Below, one piece after another: positions 5,419 through 24,464 of a stretch of 33,514 nucleotides of DNA. Both the position numbers and the translations under genes were made by a program. This stretch comes from Burkholderiaceae bacterium. Lineage in GTDB: Bacteria; Pseudomonadota; Gammaproteobacteria; Burkholderiales; Burkholderiaceae_D. Numbering within the stretch: the stretch's first letter is position 1; each line of letters starts with the position of its first letter. Location of the stretch: contig JAGSYW010000027.1 in NCBI GenBank assembly GCA_018262475.1, forward strand, positions 1 through 33,514, given 5' to 3'. Below the pieces are notes generated by a model. It saw nothing but the letters and a program-made list of their open reading frames with translations, ran no database searches and was not told where the DNA came from.

Positions 5419-5486
5419 ATACTCACCAGGGTATCTTTTCGGGTCGCGGAAATCATGGCAGAAAACCGTGTTTTTGCCACATACCC
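5419..5486 (+). repeat. Dispersed ~70-bp intergenic repeat, copy 1
   Basis: Starts with ATACTCACCAGGGTAT and ends with GCCACATACCC, 68 bp in total. The interior has the shared GAAATCATGGC-AGAAAACC stretch, and TGGCAGAAAAC can pair with GTTTTTGCCA next to the right end. Compare copies at 11475, 18196 and 24396. Confidence 0.75.
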
Positions 5487-5520
5487 AAATTAGATTTCGC
5501 TTGCAGCGATAAATATTCAA

Positions 5521-5547
5521 CATAACCTCACGTATTGCGTGGTTATG
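5521..5547. promoter_or_regulatory. Bulged inverted repeat upstream of sucA
   Basis: CATAAC and CACG on the left pair with CGTG and GTTATG on the right, with a 2-nt bulge and a TATTG loop. No T-run follows, so this is more likely an operator or RNA structure than a terminator. Confidence 0.35.
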
Positions 5548-5673
5548 CGACAATAATTGCACACGTTCAGCCGTGGACTAACGACTATCGAATACAGTAA
5601 GCTCATATAAAACTCACTTCCAATCAAAATGCAGTCCGCCGACCGGTCAGGCCGGCAAGCGGATAACCGGATT

Positions 5674-5688
5674 TTCGCGAAGCGCGAA
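5674..5688 (+). promoter_or_regulatory. Hairpin directly upstream of sucA ribosome site
   Basis: The perfect stem TTCGCG-AAG-CGCGAA ends two bases before the AAGGTGG ribosome site of sucA. It could affect initiation; this is inferred from position only. Confidence 0.35.
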
Positions 5689-5701
5689 GAAAGGTGGCAA
5701 T

Positions 5702-22732: not shown

Positions 22733-22770
22733 TGCGATTTGTCCTTCTTCTGTGCGCGGCCTCCGCCGAC

Positions 22771-22846
22771 TGGTGGAGGTAAGCGGGATCGAACCGCTGA
22801 CCTCTTGCATGCCATGCAAGCGCTCTCCCAGCTGAGCTATACCCCC
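22771..22846 (-). tRNA. tRNA-Ala (anticodon GGC)
   Basis: The 76-nt cloverleaf on the minus strand has an encoded CCA. The anticodon stem CTTGC/GCAAG surrounds ATGGCAT with GGC at 34-36, the T-loop is GGTTCGATCC and the D-arm AGCTCAGCTGGGAGAGC. It is 30 bp past the gltX stop codon and probably in the same transcript as gltX and tRNA-Glu. Confidence 0.95.
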
Positions 22847-22876
22847 GTGACACAGAAACGAGATTATAAAAAACGG

Positions 22877-24268
22877 TTACAGATATTTCGCCAGACGCTG
22901 CGTTACCGTGTCACGCCCGAACAGGTGCACTACCGCATCGATCGACGGCGTTTGCAACTGGCCGGTCAGCATCAGCCGCAACGGCATCGCAATCTGCGGC
23001 ATCTTCAGCTTGTGGTTCGCCAGCACACCTTTCATCATGCCCGACAGCGCCTCGCGACTCCAGTCGACCGCAGCGCATTGCTGCGCGTATTCGGTCAGCG
23101 CCGCTTTCGCTGCGTCCGTCAGATGACCAGCCAAGGCCGTCGCATCCGGCTTCGGCTCGCGGTAGAACAGCATCGCCGCATCGGCCAGTTCAACCAGCGT
23201 GTTCGCGCGCTCCTTCAACAGCGCAATCACCGGCTGCAATGGCGGCGCGCCGTCGAATACCGCGCCGTCACGCTCCAGAAATGGGCGCACCAGCGTTTCC
23301 AGCCGCGCATCGTCCGATTGGCGGATGTAGTGGTTGTTCAGCCACGCCATCTTTTCCATGTTGAACTGCGCCGCCGAACCCGACAGGTGGTCGAGGTCGA
23401 ACCACTGGCAGAACTGCTCCATCGAAAAAATTTCATCGTTGCCGTGGCTCCAGCCGAGGCGCGCCAGATAGTTCAGCACCGCTTCCGGCAGATACCCCTG
23501 CTCCGGGTAATCCATCACACTGACCGCGCCGTGGCGCTTCGACAGCTTTTCGCCGTCGGCGCCGAGGATCATCGGCAGATGCGCATACAGCGGCGGCGTT
23601 GCGCCCAGAGCCTTGAGGATGTTGATCTGGCGCGGCGTGTTGTTCACATGGTCGTCGCCGCGGATCACGTGCGTGATGCGCATGTCCCAGTCATCGACCA
23701 CGACGCAGAAATTGTAGGTTGGCGTGCCGTCGGAACGGGCGATGATCAGGTCGTCCATTTCCTGGTTCGAAATCGTGATTTCACCTTTCACCAGGTCTTT
23801 CCAGGTGACATCGCCATCCTGTGGATTCTTGAAACGCACCACCGGCTGGCGGCCTGCCGGAATTGGCGGCAAGGTCTTGCCCGGTTCTGGACGCCAGGTG
23901 CCGTCGTAGCGCCATTTCTCGCCTGCCAGACGCTGGCGTTCGCGCATCGCTTCAACTTCTTCCGCCGTGCAGTAGCAGTAATAGGCGCTGCCTTCGGCCA
24001 GCATCGTCTGGATCACCTCGCGGTAGCGATCCATGTGGCGCATCTGGTAGAAAGGGCCTTCATCGTGATGCAGGCCGAGCCATTGCATGCCGTCGATAAT
24101 CGCCTGCACTGCTTCCGGCGTCGAGCGTTCGACGTCGGTATCCTCGATGCGCAGGATGAACTGGCCGCCGAAGTGGCGCGCATAGGCCCACGAATACAGC
24201 GCAGTGCGTGCGCCGCCGAGATGGAGAAAGCCGGTCGGGCTGGGTGCGAAACGGGTGCGAACAGTCAT
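22877..24268 (-). CDS. gltX: Glutamyl-tRNA synthetase
   Basis: Charges tRNA-Glu with glutamate. The product is 463 residues, typical bacterial length. Class I signatures are present: the HIGH-type motif in [21 protein letters not shown], and the KMSKS-type motif EKLSKRHG. The start is the ATG giving [13 protein letters not shown], which matches the family; two upstream in-frame starts (TTG and ATG) are possible and none has a good ribosome site. Discriminating versus non-discriminating specificity cannot be told from what I can see. It is followed on the same strand by tRNA-Ala and tRNA-Glu. Confidence 0.97.
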
Positions 24269-24395
24269 GGCAGTCAACATAGCGGACAAGCCGCAGAAAT
24301 CAAAAGCAAGATTTTACCGCTTTATCCCCATTGCTTGAAATATCAGGCTGTCATGCCGACGAGCGAATGAAAAAACATGTCGCAACCGCAAAAAA

Positions 24396-24464
24396 ATACT
24401 ACCAGGAGTATTTTCAAACCACTTTGGAAATAGTGGCTCAGAAACCACATTTAGCCATATACCC
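24396..24464 (+). repeat. Dispersed ~70-bp intergenic repeat, copy 4
   Basis: 69 bp. The left end AAAATACT-ACCAGG-AGTATTTT is a perfect 8-bp hairpin. The interior contains GGAAATAGTGGCTCAGAAACC, with TGGCT…AGCCA pairing, and the right end is TTTAGCCATATACCC. It lies between gltX and fdhD. Confidence 0.75.

Follow-up and report, generated by a model that had tools for sequence, protein, structure and literature searches.

A 70-bp multi-box intergenic element of three genera of Burkholderiaceae, evenly spaced in two of them: a putative chromosome-organising DNA site

Short palindromic sites with a structural rather than a regulatory function are known from bacterial chromosomes, as exemplified by the matS/MatP, parS/ParB, NBS/Noc and SBS/SlmA systems. 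Bacterial chromosomes are also believed to comprise supercoiled domains, each approximately 10 kb in size, and no fixed sequence is known to mark such domains at that spacing. Dispersed sequences of other kinds include ERIC/RU-1 (127 bp), which are enterobacterial intergenic repeats with imperfect inverted repeats, and DNA-uptake sequences, which are 10–30 bp long and occur about once per kb. REP sequences are defined by a GT(A/G)G head and, directly after it, a single compact and imperfect palindrome of approximately 20–40 bp (PMC2817692). The type-1 operator of the CsoR/RcnR proteins has the form TACT-G6-N-AGTA, with repeats situated 6–9 bp apart (PMC3902906).

The element described here was studied in a 33,514-nt stretch of DNA from a Burkholderiaceae genome (the source genome, G000); that stretch, at its full length, is referred to as the window. 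Four full copies and a decayed fifth are present in it (Table 1). A preliminary description had reported four copies of an unnamed, dispersed intergenic repeat that is not tied to one gene context. The four copies were confirmed with adjusted boundaries, and many further ones exist in the source genome and in relatives. Copies 1, 2 and 4 belong to a short form, whereas copy 3 represents a long form that begins further upstream, near 18148, than that description gave. The decayed copy matches the sequence profile described below with 26.3 bits over model positions 1–60, and a counterpart was found at the equivalent site in a second species, G002. When set side by side by description, the element and ERIC/RU-1 are alike in size (approximately 70–120 bp), in their imperfect inverted repeats and in their intergenic location; the element differs in its sequence, in its invariant boxes with free spacers and in its regular spacing. 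No published description of it was found in the open-access literature; one may exist in a subscription journal.

Table 1. Copies of the element in the window and selected parts of them
Feature	Position	Strand	Form	Context or remark
Copy 1	5417..5486	+	short	same-strand gap (++), citrate synthase / 2-oxoglutarate dehydrogenase E1 genes; site also occupied in G002
Copy 1, box 1	5419..5434	+		palindrome ATAC-N8-GTAT
Copy 1, box 3	5481..5486	+		ATACCC; 62 bp from first ATAC (63 in most copies of the same genus)
Copy 2	11475..11546	-	short	divergent gap, PP2C-like / P-type ATPase genes; site also occupied in G002
Copy 3	18148..18265	+	long, 118 bp	convergent gap, PBP-OmpA / M48 peptidase genes
Copy 3, extra 5' inverted repeat	18156..18182	+		ACTGACC...GGTCAGT; absent from copies 1, 2 and 4
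Copy 4	24394..24464	+	short	between gltX (-, glutamyl-tRNA synthetase) and fdhD (-); site also occupied in G002
Copy 5	28295..28354	-	short, decayed	box-1 palindrome intact (ATACTGGCGGGTGTAT), 3' end gone

Eight copies from the source genome, i.e. the four full copies in the window and four others that match an exact gapped pattern, were aligned over 71 columns. ATACT/GTAT, AAA, GG(C), TTT and a terminal ATACCC are common to all of them, each at a fixed position, with ATACT/GTAT forming a 16-bp palindrome at positions 3–18. The start ATAC-N8-GTAT given in the preliminary description is thus found throughout, while the interior string that it gave fits copies 1 and 4 and not the others. Nor is the similarity confined to the 16-bp core, an outcome that would have refuted that description by its own account. 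In all three genera in which the element was found in numbers (see below), the layout over 68–70 bp is the same: ATACW-N6-WGTAT (box 1), a T-tract, a second palindrome (box 2), a T-tract and a terminal ATACYC half-site (box 3). The second palindrome is located 25 bp beyond the first, and the half-site 63 bp, or six helical turns, from the first ATAC. Because box 1 is palindromic, a few copies (e.g. at locus L026:699-799) also give partial matches on the opposite strand; these have the palindrome in common with the copy, or nearly so, in the manner of two copies placed back to back.

The long form measures 118–120 bp and has approximately 48 bp added 5′ of box 1, carrying the inverted repeat AATAACTGAC...GTCA(A/G)T(A/T)AGG. 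It was detected through DNA matches of window positions 18148–18265 to dozens of sites in G002, and it accounts for 58 of the 144 copies sampled, or about 40% in the genus of the source genome. Its copies are more uniform in sequence than those of the short form. In copy 3, the extra inverted repeat is followed on the minus strand by TTATTTTG, which could terminate transcription coming from that side.

To count copies, a sequence-only profile (R1) was built from the eight aligned copies and used on the 2.18-Mb source genome. This genome-wide search, for which the preliminary description had called, revealed at least 150 copies, the number scored out of 656 candidates, with E values from 3e–16 to 1e–6, rather than no further ones. 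In sampled contiguous stretches, copies numbered 48 for the source genome (391 kb) and 96 for G002 (800 kb), from which approximately 270 copies per genome are extrapolated; the underlying density, though not the regularity, may be slightly too high, because the stretches, picked by contig irrespective of their own copy numbers, came preferentially from contigs with many listed matches. Mean spacing is alike, at 8.3–9.5 kb, in the genus of the source genome (g1) and in a second genus (g13).

Distribution was assessed by scanning 295 genomes of the family for the pattern ATACW-N6-WGTAT-NTT-N36..50-ATACYC, with the reversed pattern as a control. The control had no match in any of the 295 genomes. 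Several of the genomes from which sequence was read (G001, G002, G014, G080 and others) are fragmented assemblies, and parts of these genomes were read. In g1, exact matches numbered 72 in the source genome and 84 in another, with none in a third; all four g13 genomes had 111–168, and g49 genomes had up to 60, patchily distributed. Outside these three genera there was one stray match, in g60. Each of the three genera has its own consensus within the identical layout: the arms of box 2 differ at equal spacing (GCCA-N9-TGGC in g1, CGCA-N9-TGCG in g13), and box 1 in g49 is mostly TACT-GGGGGG-AGTA or similar. A class-wide scan of 369 genomes yielded, outside the source genome, only one match, which is unlike the element; control matches were at least as frequent, and this lone match is expected by chance. 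Copies were also looked for in the sister genome G001 (g1), and none were found. The system can therefore be absent, as would be expected of an accessory organiser.

Among gapped palindromes in intergenic DNA sampled from an element-bearing sister species, ATAC-N8-GTAT exceeds expectation more than any other (46 observed, 0.7 expected). Moreover, 115 of the 116 ATACW-N6-WGTAT palindromes in 1.19 Mb fall inside called elements, and the remaining one is in a weak element. Two other palindromes were observed among the intergenic calls, each possibly belonging to a CRISPR array or some other repeat: TCCCCAC-N4-GTGGGGA, with approximately 65 copies in 400 kb of G014 (C10:180001-580000, L174-L193), and CTGCC-N5-GGCAG, with approximately 62 copies in 400 kb of G080 (C9:1-400000, L194-L213). 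A search of phage records with one copy and its flanks gave no match, and a link to phages was rejected, the broad pattern matches in viral contigs being sequences other than the element; many of these are near-identical to each other, as though a single phage sequence recurred among them.

The positions of the copies relative to genes were determined with a simple codon-usage gene finder written for this analysis. Intergenic locations were found for 141 of the 142 copies classified in G000 and G002, and for all 56 classified in G014 (g13) and G080 (g49). Within the window, the copies occupy same-strand (++ and --), divergent and convergent gaps, in agreement with the varied contexts first reported, and the genes beside them have ordinary functions in housekeeping and transport. 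Among the 58 long-form copies, convergent gaps are over-represented (27) and divergent promoter gaps hardly occur (3); the short form has no orientation preference with respect to tandem genes (23 vs 32). Replichore polarity was considered and rejected, the correlation of element strand with GC skew being weak (r = -0.18).

Other features of the window were observed in the course of this work. For the P-type cation ATPase encoded at 11591–14272, the relatives found were, besides one in CTSoil_111 (73%), in Rhodobacteraceae and Hymenobacter (50–51%) and in Firmicutes, e.g. Clostridia and Paenibacillus (42%), a set that hints at horizontal transfer. A tandem pair of tRNA genes (22660–22846, minus strand) adjoins gltX. 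A 543-aa open frame with no Pfam match (22739–24370, plus strand), which lies antisense to the glutamyl-tRNA synthetase gene (22877–24289, minus strand), is probably spurious.

The most unexpected result of the analysis is the even spacing of the element. Over 800 kb of G002 there are 2.4 copies per 20 kb, with a variance/mean ratio of 0.29, as against 0.85 for random intergenic gaps and 0.68–0.74 when only larger, non-divergent gaps were used. Ratios as low as that observed occurred in no more than 1 of 4000 null draws (p<=0.001). The coefficient of variation (CV) of the spacing in the same genome was 0.55, compared with 0.87–0.93 under the null, and was reached in none of the null draws. For 400 kb of G014, the CV was 0.67 vs 0.95 (p = 0.005), and the dispersion of counts gave p = 0.035. 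Regularity was not detectable in G080, where 14 copies were found in 400 kb, or 1 per 28 kb. The element is, then, spaced more evenly than chance in two genera, and strikingly regular. Its distribution is non-random and independent of gene function, as is expected of a chromosome-organising site.

The copies were also compared between G000 and G002. Matching flanks in G002 were located for 40 copies of the source genome; at 39 of these sites G002 carries a copy, and the few missing sites in this comparison are mostly artefacts of coordinate projection. Box positions are about 90–100% identical across 35 pairs of copies aligned from equivalent sites. Identity in the spacer of box 1 and in the region separating box 2 from box 3 is mostly 40–65%, which is lower than that of the flanks (typically 80–93%), and element length is conserved to within 1–2 bases. 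The spacers evolve fast, indicating that part of the element sequence is under no constraint.

These data bear on the mobile or REP/MITE-like nature suggested in the preliminary description. The REP-like part of that suggestion stands as regards distribution. Like REPs and BIMEs, the element has hundreds of palindromic intergenic copies (a count above 100 outside genes in each genome being characteristic of REPs), is scarce in divergent gaps, avoids promoters and has a consensus particular to each lineage. It might be palindromic DNA that a Y1 (RAYT-type) transposase, present in single copy, dispersed in the distant past and that has since been retained for gyrase/nucleoid or mRNA-end functions; Y1_Tnp genes are present in every element-bearing genome tested, and in both G000 and G002 one copy lies approximately 0.8 kb from a RAYT gene. 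The defining features of REPs that could be tested are, however, lacking. The alignments contain two spaced palindromes and a half-site at fixed distances, and neither the GT(A/G)G head nor the single compact hairpin of REPs (PMC2817692); moreover, copies are single and evenly spaced, while REPs are mostly clustered. In the 3.3-kb loci of G000 and G002 the RAYT gene is not flanked by element copies, the only one present being that at 0.8 kb, past an hsp20-like gene, and the RAYT gene has GGGGTCGGAGT flanks of its own. Listed copies in G014 and G080 are kilobases away from Y1_Tnp genes, and the element-free G001 carries two such genes. Mobilisation by RAYT was rejected on these grounds, and a REP-like origin is regarded as unlikely. 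The RAYT-like gene itself, single-copy and adjoining the hsp20-like gene, was located at L082:1471-2193 (G000:C136) and in L081 (G002:C19), with the inverted repeats flanking it in the region of L082:1409 and 2301. The dispersion, the sharp boundaries and the two size classes, of which the long is the more uniform, would also suit relics of MITEs or insertion-sequence ends, evenly spaced as a result of target immunity. Such relics are nevertheless quite improbable. The ends (ATATAC... and ...ATACCC) stand in direct relation and are not terminal inverted repeats, no target-site duplication was seen flanking the aligned copies, and the boxes are invariant while the spacers diverge, which dead relics would not show. 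Sharing of sites between the two species is near-complete, with no insertion polymorphism and no convincing empty site of the kind that the preliminary description had advised looking for in close strains; with no flanking transposase either, the suggestion of mobility was not borne out.

Box 1 resembles the type-1 CsoR/RcnR (DUF156) operator, which raises the question of whether the element could be the operator of a very large regulon. TACT/AGTA repeats that are separated by 6–9 bp and enclose an uninterrupted G/C tract are found in most g49 copies (mostly TACT-S6-AGTA), partly in g1 and not in g13, the spacer of which is AT-rich with no G-tract. A DUF156 gene occurs in every element-bearing genome tested, but also in G001, so that its presence does not separate element-bearing from element-free genomes, and the DUF156 protein was rejected as the binder. 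Box 1 is, furthermore, only part of a 70-bp element, most of the sites occupy convergent or tandem gaps and not the promoters of regulated genes, and their hundreds exceed what an ordinary repressor would have. An operator is accordingly rather improbable. A second, stronger DUF156 (CsoR/RcnR-type) gene was observed in g49 genomes (G080:C1:436816 and G119:C5:407318), g49 being the genus with the most RcnR-operator-like box 1. The even dispersion along the chromosome, the strong consensus and the finding of only other sequences in viral contigs would be consistent with a sequence for DNA uptake or self-recognition that transformation has spread and preserves. Such a sequence is very improbable all the same, as known uptake sequences are much shorter and much more frequent than the element, which is also excluded from genes and has a second palindrome specific to the genus. 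The last possibility, that of a structured RNA or 3′-UTR element, is barely credible, although inverted repeats are present and copy 3 folds better than its shuffles (z = -2.9). The z values of the other copies range from +0.9 to -1.7, folding of the consensus gave only the invariant 5-bp stem of box 1, Rfam searches yielded no match to the element, and its orientation relative to genes is random. In all-pairs tests against column-shuffled nulls, no covarying pair was found in 115 copies from g1, 95 from the second genus or 56 long copies; a GGCYAAAA/TTTTRGCC pairing over long range, which had appeared when copy 3 was folded, was not upheld. The structural RNA of the preliminary description is thus largely refuted, and the lack of both base-pair covariation and a flanking transposase leaves mobile and RNA readings poorly supported.

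The explanation preferred here, to which a probability of roughly 45% is assigned, is that the element is a composite DNA site for a putative lineage-specific chromosome-organising protein, and neither an RNA nor a currently moving transposon. Invariant boxes at fixed helical distances, free spacers, occurrence in both orientations, location off promoters and even dispersion are better explained by a protein–DNA site with a chromosome-scale role than by mobility, an RNA or operator function. From these features we infer protein binding, DNA wrapping and a chromosome-organising role. A putative sequence-specific protein, probably dimeric and possibly acting with partners, would read the first palindrome, the second palindrome and the ATACYC half-site, and would probably wrap or loop the approximately 70 bp of the site. 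Such sites would lie every 8–9 kb or so in intergenic DNA, where genes stay undisturbed, and selection would maintain both how many there are and how evenly they are spaced; most likely, they would serve to anchor, bend or bound supercoiled chromosome loops, each genus having its own co-evolved version of the site. The lower density and the lack of detectable regularity in G080, as well as the fast-evolving spacers, speak against an organising site. The even spacing could, in addition, be the fossil of target immunity in an ancient mobile element, but the maintenance of the boxes argues for a current function.

A composite organising site would resemble matS, parS, NBS and SBS in being palindromic, in being distributed along the chromosome and in having a presumed structural role. 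Those sites are 12–16 bp in length, whereas the element is a 70-bp multi-box site at intervals of 8–9 kb, the protein of which is putative. At somewhat less than even odds, it may represent a new chromosome-organisation system, comprising hundreds of 70-bp multi-box nucleoprotein sites at a near-regular 8–9 kb, with a sequence co-evolved with the putative protein, in at least three genera. This spacing resembles the size of approximately 10 kb that is quoted for supercoiling domains. If the proposal is true, then with evenly spaced elements that some species retain at the same sites and a sister species lacks, comparison and deletion could directly test whether such domains are marked by sequence.
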